A stretch of 38,865 nucleotides of DNA from contig JAFYRW010000018.1 in the NCBI GenBank assembly GCA_017546785.1, positions 1 to 38,865 of the forward strand. The letters run 5' to 3'. Positions 33,722 to 38,865 of this stretch are shown in pieces (positions within the stretch are counted from its first letter, which is position 1; each line of letters opens with the position of its first letter). The notes under the pieces were generated by a model. It was not told the origin of the DNA, did not search any database, and saw only the letters and a list, made by a program, of their open reading frames with translations. The position numbers were made by a program, and so were the translations under genes. The stretch comes from Bacteroidaceae bacterium. Lineage in GTDB: Bacteria > Bacteroidota > Bacteroidia > Bacteroidales > Bacteroidaceae.

Positions 33722-35727
33722 GGCGTTTGTGGGTGCTTATCCTCTTCTTCTCGCTGCTGACAACCTCTCTGAAAGCTCAGATAAATGTCGAGCAGGTGAT
33801 GATAATAGGGCGCAATGCGCTCTATTTTGAGGATTATGTGCTCTCGATACAATATTTCAACAAGGTAATAAACGCAAAGCCCTATCTGCACGAGCCATAC
33901 TTCTTTAGGGGGCTCGCAAAATTTTATCTCGAGGATTTTACCGGTGCCGAGAGTGACCTTACTGCGGCTATAGAGAAGAATCCATATGTGTCGCGTGTCT
34001 ATCAGTTGCGCGGTCTTTCGCGTGCCAATCTCGAAAAATACGAGGCTGCCGAGAGTGATTTTCGTATGGCTATAAAATACGACCCGCAAAATCCTCTTTT
34101 GTGGCAGAATCTTGCGATAACAGCTGTAAAGCGTGAAGAGTGGGATAAGGCGGCAAGCATCATAGATTCTATGCTTGTATTCTCGCCTCGTAATACCGAT
34201 GCTTATATTATGCGTACACAGGTTGCTGTCAAGCAAAATGATAGCCTTGTTGCGCACAGGATGATAGACGAGGCGGTAAAGAACGACTCTTACTCGGCCG
34301 ATGTATATTCGGCGCGTGCAATGCTTTACGTCGATGAGGAGCGCTATCAAGAGGCGGAGAGTGATATTGACCGTGCCATAGAACTTATGCCGAGCAATAG
34401 CAACAGTTATCTCAGCAGGGCGCTCATACGCTATTATAGGAATAATTTCCGCGGTGCAATGGAGGATTTTGATATGGCCCTTTACGTCGAGCCGACAAAT
34501 TTTATTGCTACCTACAACCGTGGTCTGTTGCGTATGCAGGTAGGCGACGATAATCGCGCCATAGAGGATTTTGACAAGATTCTCGATATTGATCCCGATA
34601 ATACTATGGCGCGCTTTAATCGTGCAATATTGCGCGATAATACCGGAGATTATGTTGGTGCGGTAGATGACTATTCGCGTGTCATCGATGATTTTCCCAA
34701 TTTCGATTATGGCTATCAGCGTCGCTCTGTGTCGCGACGTAAGATTGGCGATATAAAGGGCGCTGCTGCCGATGAGGCGTGGTTGCTCAAGCGTCAATAT
34801 GCGAGTTTAAATAATGTTGAAACAGATACTCTGCAGGAGAAGGAGAGTATCGACAAGGTGCGTAAACGCTCCGATCGCAATATTCGCAACTACAATAAGA
34901 TGGTTGCCTTCGATGATGGATTGGGACGCCAATATGCAACGGTGTACAGAGGACGTGTGCAGGACCGCAACGTATATGTGGAGCTTGAGCCTATGTTCGC
35001 GCTCACATACTACGAAAAGCCGCGTGAGATAAACGATGCTCCAGACTTTTATAAGCTTGTGGCCGATATTAACGAGGCTAATCTATTGCCTTATCGTCTG
35101 CTGCTGACTAACGATGAGAGAGCGCTCAGTCAAATTGAGGTAGAGAGACATTTTGCCGATATTGACACGCAGTCCAAAAATATAATAAGCGACGAGGAGT
35201 TTGTCTATCCGCGTCTGGCCCGTGCGTTGGATTATTATCTTGTGCAGGATTTTGAGTCGGCTATCGACGACCTTAACAATGCTCTTGTGCTCGACGGCGA
35301 TGTATGGCACGTCTATTTTGTTAGGGCAACCGTTCGATTCAAGCAATTGGAGTCTATGTATGCCGGCGAAATAAACGACAACAACTCTTTGGCAATAAAA
35401 AAGAGTCATTCGCTGCCCGATTTTGACTATCGCTTGGTAAAGAGCGACCTTGATAAAGTAATAGACCTTGTCCCCGATTTTGCACAGGCATACTACAATC
35501 GCGGTAATGTGTCGGCTAAATTAAGCGATTTTAAATCGGCAGTGCTCGACTATACTGCAGCGCTTGAACTGAACAGTAATTTAGCCGAAGCTTATTACAA
35601 CAGAGGACTATCCAAAATATATCTCGGCGATACAGCCGCGGGCGTTGCTGATCTTAGTCGCGCAGGAGAGCTCGGGCTCTATCAGGCGTATAATGTGATA
35701 AAGAAATTCGCAAATAACGAACAATAA
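33718..35727 (+). CDS. Secreted or periplasmic tetratricopeptide-repeat protein
   Basis: A 669-residue protein with a signal peptide (LLTTSLKA, cleavage before Q21). Residues about 25-365 are nine or ten TPR units (ALYFEDYVLSIQYF, AKFYLEDFTGAESDL, NRGLLRMQVGDDNRAIEDF, LRDNTGDYVGAVDDYS). Residues about 366-490 carry a basic linker (KVRKRSDRNIRNYNK) and no clear repeat. TPR units resume, and the last two are AYYNRGNVSAKLSDFKSAVLDY and AYYNRGLSKIYLGDTAAGVADL. TPR scaffolds bind other proteins; the partner here is unknown. Translation is coupled to def (ATGA). The gene's last codons lie inside a perfect 60-bp palindrome. Confidence 0.85.
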   Translation: MRRLWVLILFFSLLTTSLKAQINVEQVMIIGRNALYFEDYVLSIQYFNKVINAKPYLHEPYFFRGLAKFYLEDFTGAESDLTAAIEKNPYVSRVYQLRGLSRANLEKYEAAESDFRMAIKYDPQNPLLWQNLAITAVKREEWDKAASIIDSMLVFSPRNTDAYIMRTQVAVKQNDSLVAHRMIDEAVKNDSYSADVYSARAMLYVDEERYQEAESDIDRAIELMPSNSNSYLSRALIRYYRNNFRGAMEDFDMALYVEPTNFIATYNRGLLRMQVGDDNRAIEDFDKILDIDPDNTMARFNRAILRDNTGDYVGAVDDYSRVIDDFPNFDYGYQRRSVSRRKIGDIKGAAADEAWLLKRQYASLNNVETDTLQEKESIDKVRKRSDRNIRNYNKMVAFDDGLGRQYATVYRGRVQDRNVYVELEPMFALTYYEKPREINDAPDFYKLVADINEANLLPYRLLLTNDERALSQIEVERHFADIDTQSKNIISDEEFVYPRLARALDYYLVQDFESAIDDLNNALVLDGDVWHVYFVRATVRFKQLESMYAGEINDNNSLAIKKSHSLPDFDYRLVKSDLDKVIDLVPDFAQAYYNRGNVSAKLSDFKSAVLDYTAALELNSNLAEAYYNRGLSKIYLGDTAAGVADLSRAGELGLYQAYNVIKKFANNEQ

Positions 35728-35773
35728 AAGAATAGAGAGGCAATTGCCTCTCTATTCTTTTATTGTTCGTTAT
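35714..35773. repeat. Perfect 60-bp palindrome, doubling as terminator
   Basis: The left arm 35714-35743 (begins ATAACGAACAATAAAAGAAT) is the exact reverse complement of the right arm 35744-35773, with no loop. The centre is GAGAGGCAATTGCCTCTC. The left arm includes the last four codons and stop of the TPR gene. The inner AAAAGAATAGAGAGG...CCTCTCTATTCTTTT part has the form of a bidirectional terminator. Its full length is unusual for one. Confidence 0.85.
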
Positions 35774-35784
35774 CTACTTTAATC

Positions 35785-35815
35785 TTGCAAATTAAAAAAA
35801 GTTGTTGTATCTTTG
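35785..35815 (+). promoter_or_regulatory. Promoter of the transposase gene
   Basis: TTG at 35785-35787 and TATCTTTG at 35808-35815 with a 20-base spacer match the consensus fully. The leader to the ATG at 35835 is about 12 bases. As no terminator follows the transposase, the same promoter could drive the restriction-modification gene. Confidence 0.65.
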
Positions 35816-35834: not shown

Positions 35835-36770
35835 ATGACATACTTTGAATTTACAAAAAGGTTTCCTGACGAGAATAGTGCAATAGACTTTATCGTAGCC
35901 ACAAAGTACAAAGACGGTTATGTATGCCCCAAATGTGGTTGTGTTCACAAGGGCATATATCACCAAAAGTACAATAGGCGTTTCTTGTATTGTAATAATT
36001 GCAAGTCGGAGTTTTCAGCATTGAAAGGAACTATTTTTGAGAACACGCATTTGGACTTGCGTATGTGGTTGTATGCAATGAATTTGGTTATTGTATCTCG
36101 AAAAGGTATATCGGCATTGCAATTAAAGCGTGAGTTAGGTATGGGTTCTTATCAGTCTGCTTGGCGTATGCTACACCAAATTCGTAAAGCAATGGAGAAA
36201 GAGGAGTATAAGGACACATTTGAGGCTGTTGTTGAGATTGACGAAACTTATGTTGGTGGTAAGCCACGCAAGAAAAACAATCACAAGGACAACGAAGAAG
36301 ATAATAACGACGAAAACAAACCTAAACGCGGTCGCGGTACATCCAAAACACCTGTAATCGGAGTTAAGGAACGCAATACAGGTAAAGTCCACGCTGTTGT
36401 CGCTAATTACAACGAGGAGGGCAAACAATTAAGCGGAAAACAACTTTTCAATGTACTTAAAAAGGTGTGCAAGGATAACACTATTGTAATGACCGACCAA
36501 TTTTCGGGTTATAATATTCTTGATAAAGAAAATGATTGTAAATTTGTGCGGTTGAAAATAGACCATAGTGTTACATACTCACTCGGAAATGGAATACACA
36601 CCAACGGAATAGAGAGTTTTTGGGCTATACTAAAAAGAGGTGTGTATGGCGTATTCCATAATGTTTCTGTTAAGTATATGCAGAAATATGTAAACGAGTT
36701 CTGCTATCGTCTTAACCACAGAGATAATAATGAGGCGTTTAATGCGTTAGTTAATTTAGCAATAGTATAA
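35835..36770 (+). CDS. IS1595-family transposase
   Basis: A 311-residue DDE transposase. The start at 35835 is preferred over a TTG 11 codons upstream because it gives MTYFEFTKRFPDE, a normal family start. The N-terminal zinc ribbon has C31, C34, C53 and C56 (CPKCGC, YCNNC). A helix-turn-helix-like region (KGISALQLKRELGMGSYQSAW) follows. Catalytic residues are D136 in VEIDETYVGG, D221 in MTDQFSGY and E260 in HTNGIESFWAILKRG, with N257 beside it as in this family. A highly charged, Asn/Lys-rich insert (about residues 143-168) lies after the first Asp. The gene appears intact. It starts a segment that is visibly more AT-rich in codon choice than the preceding genes. Confidence 0.93.
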   Translation: MTYFEFTKRFPDENSAIDFIVATKYKDGYVCPKCGCVHKGIYHQKYNRRFLYCNNCKSEFSALKGTIFENTHLDLRMWLYAMNLVIVSRKGISALQLKRELGMGSYQSAWRMLHQIRKAMEKEEYKDTFEAVVEIDETYVGGKPRKKNNHKDNEEDNNDENKPKRGRGTSKTPVIGVKERNTGKVHAVVANYNEEGKQLSGKQLFNVLKKVCKDNTIVMTDQFSGYNILDKENDCKFVRLKIDHSVTYSLGNGIHTNGIESFWAILKRGVYGVFHNVSVKYMQKYVNEFCYRLNHRDNNEAFNALVNLAIV

Positions 36771-36788: not shown

Positions 36789-38801
36789 ATGATTATCAAT
36801 AATTTACAAAACGGGGGGGGTAAAAGCGAAACTATAACCGAAGGAATTTTTAGAAAGTTTTATGGTTTAGGTGCTTTTATTGAGAAATCCGCAATACCAA
36901 ATCATTATGGGTTTAAGTCTAAAAAGGGTACAGGGTATAAAGGTTATCCCGACTTTTTTAGAGATAATAAAGATGAGGATTTTGTAATTATTGTTGAAGC
37001 AAAAGCTGATGACTTAAAGGCTGCGTGTGAAGAAGTTGTTTACTACACAAACAATAATACTATTGATAAAGATATTGTTGCTATTGCCATTTCTGGTGTA
37101 AATAAATCTTATAAAGCTGCTTTGTTCTTCAAGATTAACGATGCAGAAATAAAAGAAATTCCAACCGATGCAAAGTTGCAAACACTTAAAGACATCAAGA
37201 AATTATATCAAAAGGAGAAATATGGTGAATGTATTTCATCTGACGCTCTAAAAAATACAATCAAAGAATTAAACGAGAATTTTCACAAACACGGAATAAA
37301 GGACACTGAACGGAGTTTGTTTTTTGCAGGTTTGATGATTGCTTTGAAAGATAGAACATTTAGACAGACTTATAAAAGCGTTCAACCCCCAACCGATGAG
37401 GAACGAGAAAATGCAACATATCGTTTGATTGATTCCTACAACTTGAATATATTTATTCTTGACGCTATTGTTAGACAAATATCAAACAAAATAAACAATT
37501 TATCCAAAGTCTATAATTGGAAAGACAAATTCTCGTTTATCAAAAATATAGACTATCCATTAGTCGAGTATAAAAAACTTATTGTTCTTATAGAGAAGAA
37601 TATATTTTATCCTTTTCGTATGGACGAGAAACAAGACATTTTAGGTCGTGCCTACAAGATATTCCTATCAAGAGCTGGAAAAGCAGAAAATAAGAATATC
37701 ATATTAACACCCGACCATATTAAGCGTTTAATGGTTGATTTGGCGAGGTTGAGCGTTGATGATGTCGTTTTAGATACCTGTACGGGTAGCGGTGGTTTTC
37801 TTATGGAGGCAATGGAGCAACTTATCGAATTGGCGAAAAACAATGGGGAAACTATAGAGGATATAAAGAATAAACAGTTAATAGGTTTTGAGAATGATGA
37901 TACATTATTTGCATTAGCCTGTTCAAATATGTTTTTACACGGAGATGGCAGAACTAACCTTATATTTGGAAGTAGTCTTGTGGATGAAGACTCCGAGGTG
38001 TTCAAAGCAATTAGAAATCTCAAACCTAATAAATGTATTATCAATCCACCATACGAAAGAAATCTACCTATACAATTTACAAAAAAAGCATTAGAATTTA
38101 TAGAAAAGGATGGCAAGTTGGTGATTATTATGCCAACGCCAACCCTTAATCGTAATATAGGTGGTTTGACGGATGACATACTCTCTATGGCAAGATTAGA
38201 CTTTGTAATAAAAATGCCAAATAATCTTTTTTCTGAACAAGGAAGAACTGTAAATACATCTATTTTTGGATTTACTAAAACTCCACACGAGAAATCAGAT
38301 AGAGTTATCTTCTACAATATGGAAGATGATGGATTAGCGAGTGTTCAACACAAAGGAAGAATCGACAAATATGGTAAATGGCAAAAAATACGAGATAATG
38401 TAATAAATTGCATAAGACATAACAATAATGTTGAAGCAGAATATAACAGGCGGTTGATTTACGATGGTAACATTTTGAATTGTTATGGCATTAAAAACAC
38501 AAAGGAGAGTGGAAATTTAGTAAAGTTGGGGCTTTTATTTGATTATGAAAAAGGGAGTCTGCAAAGTGAAAATAACATTGATGGGGAATATGATTTTATA
38601 ACAGCATCAGAGGAGTGGAAAACTCATTATACTTACGACAACGATTGCGAAGCGTTGATTTATGCAGTGTCTGCCGGTGGTTCTTTGGGTCGCAGCCATT
38701 ATGTAAATGGCAAATTTATTTATGTAACTTTTGCAAGAAAAGATAACTCGCTTAGAATAAATCGGTTGGTCGGACTGCTTGAAAATTGGGTAACGAGATA
38801 G
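36789..38801 (+). CDS. Restriction-modification fusion (nuclease motif, N6-adenine methyltransferase, partial specificity domain)
   Basis: A 670-residue protein. Residues 47-74 carry GYPDF and VIIVEAKAD, a PD-(D/E)xK nuclease motif (D55, E70, K72). Residues about 290-500 are a type I M/type IIG methyltransferase: SAM-binding DTCTGSGGF at 329-337 and catalytic NPPY at 419-422. From about residue 577, KLGLLFDYEKGSLQSENN and FITASEEWKTH with AVSAGGSLGRSHYVNGKFI match the start of a type I specificity (target recognition) domain. The layout recalls single-chain type IIB/IIG enzymes such as BcgI-A or the AloI group, but the specificity part is far too short and turns unlike the family after residue 645, so it is truncated or rearranged. 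Codons 9-11 contain a run of eight G (36813-36820). AT-rich codon use differs from the core genes. It lies 18 bases after the transposase without its own promoter. Confidence 0.82.
   Translation: MIINNLQNGGGKSETITEGIFRKFYGLGAFIEKSAIPNHYGFKSKKGTGYKGYPDFFRDNKDEDFVIIVEAKADDLKAACEEVVYYTNNNTIDKDIVAIAISGVNKSYKAALFFKINDAEIKEIPTDAKLQTLKDIKKLYQKEKYGECISSDALKNTIKELNENFHKHGIKDTERSLFFAGLMIALKDRTFRQTYKSVQPPTDEERENATYRLIDSYNLNIFILDAIVRQISNKINNLSKVYNWKDKFSFIKNIDYPLVEYKKLIVLIEKNIFYPFRMDEKQDILGRAYKIFLSRAGKAENKNIILTPDHIKRLMVDLARLSVDDVVLDTCTGSGGFLMEAMEQLIELAKNNGETIEDIKNKQLIGFENDDTLFALACSNMFLHGDGRTNLIFGSSLVDEDSEVFKAIRNLKPNKCIINPPYERNLPIQFTKKALEFIEKDGKLVIIMPTPTLNRNIGGLTDDILSMARLDFVIKMPNNLFSEQGRTVNTSIFGFTKTPHEKSDRVIFYNMEDDGLASVQHKGRIDKYGKWQKIRDNVINCIRHNNNVEAEYNRRLIYDGNILNCYGIKNTKESGNLVKLGLLFDYEKGSLQSENNIDGEYDFITASEEWKTHYTYDNDCEALIYAVSAGGSLGRSHYVNGKFIYVTFARKDNSLRINRLVGLLENWVTR
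36813..36820 (+). repeat. G8 homopolymer tract, candidate phase-variation switch
   Basis: Eight consecutive G within codons 9-11 of an AT-rich restriction-modification gene. Removing one G leads to a TAA after five further codons; adding one gives a TAA immediately after the tract. Such tracts near start codons are the classic substrate of slipped-strand phase variation in type I and III methyltransferase genes of other bacteria. Confidence 0.65.
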
Positions 38802-38865
38802 CAACCGTTCGTATTTCTGAGTTCTTCATTGCTTTGCCACAATGTGGTAACTCTTGATGCTACAA
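38802..38865. other. Right edge without an assignable gene
   Basis: These 64 bases follow the stop of the fusion gene. One plus frame reads KLGNEIATVRISEFF then stops, starting at about 38771; KLG(D/E)xA is how many specificity-subunit repeats begin, so this may be debris of a second recognition domain. CCACAATGTGG (38837-38847) is a small inverted repeat. Too little remains to judge. Confidence 0.25.

Follow-up and report, generated by a model that had tools for sequence, protein, structure and literature searches.

A candidate poly-G slippage switch in a type IIG-like restriction-modification gene carried by an IS1595-family transposon

We found that a run of eight Gs in the opening codons of a restriction-modification (R-M) gene lies directly behind the transposase of an IS1595-family transposon, and we favour, with moderate confidence, the reading that this tract is a slippage switch of the type IIG-like enzyme which the transposon carries. 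The window analysed is one whole contig (G000:C25; 38,865 nucleotides) of a 52-contig, 1.99-Mb assembly. In the proposed mechanism, the transposon would carry a single-polypeptide type IIG-like enzyme behind its transposase, and the G tract would act as a switch from within a short, variable N-terminal leader. One tract-length class in three would keep the enzyme in frame, and the other two would stop within about 70 codons, so that nuclease and methyltransferase would be lost together; the upstream transposase would be unaffected by slippage. We further infer that the tract length changes and reverts within populations and that selection favours this. At the level of sequence, the support for phase variation is real but thin.

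Features of the window:
35765..35787, + strand: left inverted repeat of the transposon; against the G026, L042, L091 and L104 copies, the inner 18 of 23 positions match and the outer five differ
35808..35815, + strand: TATCTTTG, a TAnnTTTG motif in the sequence just inside the left end, which we take to be a Bacteroidetes-type -7 promoter motif
35835..36770, + strand: IS1595-family transposase (PF12762, NF033547), codirectional with the R-M gene and ending 18 nt before its ATG
36789..38801, + strand: type IIG-like restriction-methyltransferase ORF of 670 codons (PF02384, PADLOC, identity to G026)
36813..36820, + strand: G8 tract, codons 9-11 (GGG GGG GGT), the proposed slippage switch
36948..37004, + strand: putative nuclease motif, P54-D55 ... 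E70-A-K72, picked out by eye in the translation, of the PD-(D/E)XK type
37773..37796, + strand: methyltransferase motif DTCTGSGG (residues 329-336 of the translation, inside the PF02384 match), the SAM-binding motif I
38043..38054, + strand: methyltransferase motif NPPY (residues 419-422 of the translation), the catalytic motif IV
38724..38865, - strand: genus-wide repeat of about 140 bp, found by congener search, which cuts the recognition domain and ends the contig

The tract and the enzyme behind it

The R-M ORF begins ATG ATT ATC AAT AAT TTA CAA AAC GGG GGG GGT AAA, and the eight Gs lie exactly at the positions and codons given by the initial annotation. Its frame arithmetic was also right: with one base fewer (seven Gs) the frame closes after 15 residues, five codons beyond the tract, and with one base more (nine Gs) it closes after 11 residues. 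In the window, the frame of the R-M gene depends on the length of a slippable coding tract. The gene is AT-rich, as had been stated (about 33-36% GC), its second-longest G run is 4, and every other G or C run in the window is at most 5. An order-1 model from whose training the tract was excluded produced a G8 anywhere in the gene 129 times in 20,000 simulations; for a 60-nt stretch, the figure was 34 in 200,000 (about 2e-4). When the tract was included in training, 19 of 2,000 simulated genes contained a G8, as did 62 of 300 simulated windows on one strand or the other; on this last count, it is not unusual to meet a G8 within 39 kb of sequence, but one in the first codons of the gene is rare. 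Judging from glycine codon use, three glycines would be written GGG GGG GGT about 1% of the time. Runs of at least eight Gs occur at four further sites in the 1.99-Mb assembly, three in the middle of mechanically called ORFs and one more than 60 bp from any ORF of at least 80 codons. Eight Gs is near the short end of the tracts known for frequent switching.

Judged by its domains and motifs, the ORF product is a probable DNA-cutting and DNA-marking enzyme, with predicted restriction and methylation activities. Its only Pfam match is N6_Mtase (PF02384, E 1.3e-24, residues 281-519), which places an N6-adenine methyltransferase core that also matches type I M-subunit structures by sequence; Pfam gave no match to a nuclease domain in the ORF. 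The best PADLOC model is REase_MTase_IIG (E 1.4e-38, residues 43-533). The putative nuclease motif has invariant P, D, E and K residues in an alignment of seven relatives, in which NPPY is wholly invariant and DTCTGSGG is so at six of its eight positions. The structure model of the homologous G026 protein is poor overall (mean pLDDT 54.6), with residues 61-140 at 76-85 and the first 15 residues, glycine stretch included, below 50.

As the initial annotation had noted, the next in-frame ATG is at residue 183; in-frame TTG codons precede it at 112, 130, 177 and 182. Its suggestion that an internal start there would yield a methyltransferase-only product is not supported. All seven aligned relatives retain Met183, and the segment around it is conserved, which gives that Met a structural reason, and on these grounds we rejected it as a designed second start. 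Two other roles for the tract were likewise rejected, that of a transposon end, as the inverted repeats are located elsewhere, and that of a conserved structural glycine loop, as homologues have unrelated leaders that lack a glycine run.

The transposon and the state of the window copy

A point absent from the initial annotation is that the R-M gene, judged from the DNA around it, is a passenger of an IS1595-family transposon. The window transposase matches PF12762 (E 4.8e-31) and NF033547 (E 2.1e-54) and is 89% identical to the transposase of G026 (contig OMUV01000010.1 of a Prevotellaceae MAG, also an IMG/VR contig), which also lies directly upstream of an R-M gene. The G026 element is complete at 3,326 bp. 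Its transposase and R-M gene are enclosed by 23-bp inverted repeats, CGGAATTATCTACTTTAATCTTG and an inverted copy that differs from it at one position. On either side the element is bordered by TAAATATT, a perfect target duplication of 8 bp; duplications of this length are a trait of IS1595. The right end is missing from the window because the contig ends. A third copy, L042 (JAQUBZ010000040.1, a Bacteroidales MAG), has the left transposon end only and sits in the 5' part of a SusC-like gene, with an ORF that now leads from the transposon end out into this gene (L042:4921-5080). The TAnnTTTG motif is present in L042, L086, L087 and L104 as well, and L041 has CACCTTTG.

At 35714-35773 the window contains a perfect 60-bp palindrome, its only one with arms of at least 10. 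This palindrome spans the last codons of an upstream TPR gene to the left end of the transposon, replacing the outer bases, and two congeners match 35 bp of it at 86%, elsewhere. A terminator, an aberrant insertion and an assembly fold-back are alternative explanations for it.

The identity of the window R-M protein to that of G026 ends after residue 644-645, the recognition domain being cut after position 38723, and the last 26 residues of the ORF do not align to G026 and are read from the repeat. The complete fused target-recognition domain is absent from the window copy; the G026 protein (747 aa) is about 100 residues longer, and we did not find the missing C-terminus elsewhere in the 1.99-Mb assembly. 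The repeat occurs in 22 of 43 congeners, in some of them in multiple copies and in some at contig ends. Its inner boundary, CTTGCAAAAGTTA, is found in 7 of 11 other aligned copies, and TAnnTTTG stands at one end in six of the nine aligned copies that extend to it. When one copy was folded as RNA, a hairpin was predicted (z -1.66, with 9 of 200 shuffles equally good), and Rfam gave no match at gathering score for the window and two loci with the repeat. It is possibly a mobile or non-coding RNA repeat of the genus. If the repeat did not interrupt the gene itself, the assembly jumped at this point.

Since the recognition domain is truncated, the window enzyme may be inactive at any tract length and, with the left tip altered as well, the window copy may be decaying. 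The case for a switch rests on the lineage and not on this copy, whose product may not be functional.

It is a tentative possibility, on the doubtful side, that the contig is partly an assembly chimera in which the palindrome tip and the repeat from 38724 onwards are false joins and the real gene is complete, a scenario that would be compatible with the other readings. Such joins would fit both the palindrome, unique in the window, and a contig that ends within a repeat that is multi-copy in congeners, with the missing C-terminus nowhere in the assembly. They fit less well with an inner repeat boundary common to 7 of 11 other copies, and the transposase-R-M segment is found in two other genomes too. 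As the tract lies in this segment, the main observation stands even if the contig is chimeric.

The tract in relatives and competing readings

The nearest relative of the R-M protein among 301 family genomes is that of G026 (72% identical), and the L042 protein is 95% identical to that of G026. The tract junction is comparable in these three transposon copies; the G tract is pure in two of them, the window and L042, and interrupted in G026. L042 has G8, as in the window, recorded out of frame: in its R-M frame a stop lies upstream of the tract with no start codon between the two, and the 714 codons after the tract are open up to the contig end. Between L042 and G026, dN/dS (own counting script) is 0.084 for the R-M gene and 0.027 for the transposase, and given the former value, L042 is not an old pseudogene. 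The off state of L042 may be leaky, since an in-frame ATG about 20 codons past the tract could give a shortened product. In-frame and out-of-frame alleles are thus represented by one copy each (window and L042), in different genomes and with the rest of the gene open.

These comparisons bear out the phase variation proposed by the initial annotation only in part. The tract is placed to switch the gene, and L042 is out of frame with the rest open. On the other hand, the initial annotation had set beforehand that the same stretch encoded by mixed codons in homologues would count against it, and the 72%-identical G026 encodes it as GGT AGA GGG GGC, in frame, which weakens the reading. We read G026 as an interrupted, probably locked-on allele, because L042, 95% identical to it, has a pure tract. 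A complete R-M gene was seen in G026 only, and that copy has no pure tract; L042 runs off its contig. Overall, we judge the mechanism of the initial annotation to be on balance the probable one, while its suggestion of a phasevarion is not supported.

Outside the transposon, no glycine run was found in six homologues, namely five at 57-67% identity (L043-L046, L048) and one at 45% on a Dietzia plasmid. Their leaders are short and unrelated (e.g. METKD, MSIAV, MANKIYKGVK, MAE) and precede a conserved SETITE-like motif. No close IS1595 transposase was found in the DNA flanking the first five, which for L045 comprises only 208 bp upstream. Across these homologues, the R-M leader is short, variable and unconstrained rather than absent. 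In-frame and out-of-frame G8 tracts occur only in the transposon-borne branch, with one copy seemingly on, one off and one locked on, which is the pattern of a putative slippage switch.

We scanned the gene starts of 47 homologous loci, the window left out, of which 46 include the start and represent 44 distinct places. No G or C run of at least six was found at the gene start in 42 of the 44; the two places with such a run are L042 and G153 (L016), the latter a 31-36% homologue with a G7 run at the R-M start (around L016:2927-2960). In the ATG frame of G153 a stop codon directly precedes the G7. Each of the other two frames is closed upstream and offers no start; hence no tract length accounts for this break. 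The G153 gene (L016/L144, G153:C122) is preceded by a RhuM-family gene and by an IS1595 transposase that is split and 34% identical. The combination of an IS1595 transposase and a downstream R-M gene that starts with a G run therefore recurs, but here the break is not a slip, and the case speaks partly for and partly against a switch. Among viral contigs, the DNA pattern of the tract junction was found in one contig, the same record as G026, the R-M protein at two loci and the transposase at one. None of the 131 matching plasmid records and none of the 54 matching phage records reaches 60% identity.

An accidental hotspot, in which a chance G run arose in a free leader, L042 reflects an assembly error or simply a frameshift of recent date, and there is no reversible switching maintained by selection, is in our view unlikely. 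It would account for the fact that L042 is the sole out-of-frame allele found, on a contig with coverage 6.78 according to the record title, for the lack of a pure tract in G026, and for the unconstrained leader. Likewise, G153 shows that R-M starts in this family are broken by other means, and the genome has runs of at least eight Gs at four other sites. This account is hard to reconcile, however, with two pure G8 tracts at about 72% protein identity, where synonymous differences are saturated, unless the tract was kept, and the order-1 model gives a G8 a chance of only about 2e-4 per 60 nt. We consider it very improbable that the tract is instead a programmed ribosomal or transcriptional slippage site that yields some enzyme from either length and tunes expression. 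Its position immediately after the transposase of an insertion sequence, a context with frequent programmed slippage, and the purifying selection between out-of-frame L042 and in-frame G026 would suit such a site, but G026 is in frame with an interrupted tract and needs no slippage, and programmed sites are usually runs of A or T.

Known systems and a transposase lineage with R-M passengers

If the tract is a slippage switch as we favour, the gene would add to the known phase-variable type IIG systems, and what is new would be its location on a transposon. PMC4889913 describes cj0031 of Campylobacter jejuni NCTC11168 as a phase-variable type IIG R-M gene, on with G9 and off with G10, with its tract at position 2573 of a 3732-bp gene, and reports measurements of switching, methylation and phage restriction. 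According to the same paper, strain 81-176 has an interrupted 4G-A-4G, many homologues are without the tract, and horizontal spread is presumed (PMC4889913). The two systems share a single-chain enzyme, here with predicted restriction and methylation activities, a poly-G tract, an interrupted allele (here G026), tractless homologues and presumed horizontal spread. They differ in that the window tract occupies codons 9-11, belongs to an uncultured Bacteroidales-type genome, is carried on a transposon and is known from sequence alone.

BcgI-like type IIB/IIG enzymes combine a nuclease-like N-terminus with an N6-adenine methyltransferase, an arrangement that the present R-M protein resembles. Over 65% of its length, the G026 protein shares 28.9% identity with a bcgIA-annotated protein of Staphylococcus phage phiSabovST1. 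Unlike in BcgI-like systems, the recognition domain is fused at the C-terminus here, as seen in the G026 copy; next to the Dietzia plasmid homologue, the S subunit has a gene of its own.

IS1595-family elements with passenger genes are termed tIS in PMC5704250, e.g. tISCpe8 and MTnSag1, tISCpe8 being named as a lincomycin resistance element by a title in its reference list. Our element resembles those described there in its IS1595-family transposase, its ends of the DDE kind and its possession of passenger genes, and differs in what it carries, namely R-M genes, with four kinds found across related transposases. That R-M genes move with transposable elements is described in PMC4176335 and PMC3031569, the latter with a plasmid-borne R-M system in E. 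coli that moved through linkage to IS1 and IS5; the portions available of these two papers describe no IS1595 lineage and no phase-variable passenger. The titles and abstract openings found by our search, outside which most subscription literature lies, name no IS1595-borne R-M system and no phase-variable R-M passenger.

A search with the G026 transposase at strict E-values gave matches in four of 399 family genomes and two of 393 order genomes, own genome included in both. Together with L042, six loci have a transposase at least 73% identical, and in all six it is followed by R-M genes, which fall into four kinds. Since the window, G026 and L042 were found via the R-M protein, an unbiased count comprises the other three loci, all of them with such genes. 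The window, G026 and L042 carry the type IIG gene. In G077 (L090), a Tsp45I-type nuclease domain joined to a helix-turn-helix is accompanied by a DNA methylase and an Eco57I-like enzyme; G715 (L091) has a DNA methylase and a NotI-like nuclease, and G378 (L104) a DNA methylase with no nuclease recognised. Both inverted repeats are present in G715, with flanks that match at five of eight bases, and the right ends of L090 and L104 were not found. Taken at sequence level, the L090, L091 and L104 cassettes are suggestive of an R-M-carrying transposon lineage. Each of the six genomes has one close transposase copy, and that of G378 is frameshifted: at L104:1468-2322 it consists of two overlapping pieces (query residues 8-259 and 257-314). 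With its own transposase split, the G378 copy probably needs another one.

That this IS1595 lineage in Bacteroidales is devoted to moving R-M genes, with one phase-variable branch that lands off in a naive host and slips on later, strikes us as distinctly unlikely as a whole. A switch that serves the transposon by letting it arrive off in an unmethylated host is nonetheless an attractive idea, since under that reading the establishment problem of a restriction enzyme would be solved. If true, a poly-G-switched R-M enzyme would be joined with the small transposon carrying it, two things each known separately, and the question of how a mobile restriction enzyme can enter a host and leave it alive would have an answer open to testing. 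Phase variation in Bacteroidales is mostly described as DNA inversion, and simple-repeat phase variation of R-M genes would in that case extend to uncultured members. It would also name a transposase lineage that could be used to find further mobile R-M systems.

For contrast, a looser transposase search gave matches in 36 of 201 family genomes, and loci were taken from the best 30 of these 36. Outside the close clade this yielded 27 loci at 24-39% identity, of which nine without a suitable ORF or with only a 70-residue ORF were left out. The remaining 18 neighbouring ORFs were scanned with Pfam; two were transposase pieces and one lay on the opposite strand. No methyltransferase was found next to these distant transposases in 16 cases (flanks of about 1.5 kb, best 30 of 36 genomes), although the contrast is weaker than this count, as the G153 R-M gene lies just past the flanks, one gene further. 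One of the scanned ORFs, at L112:2755-3642, encodes a PvuRts1I-like modification-dependent nuclease about 400 bp behind a distant IS1595 transposase.
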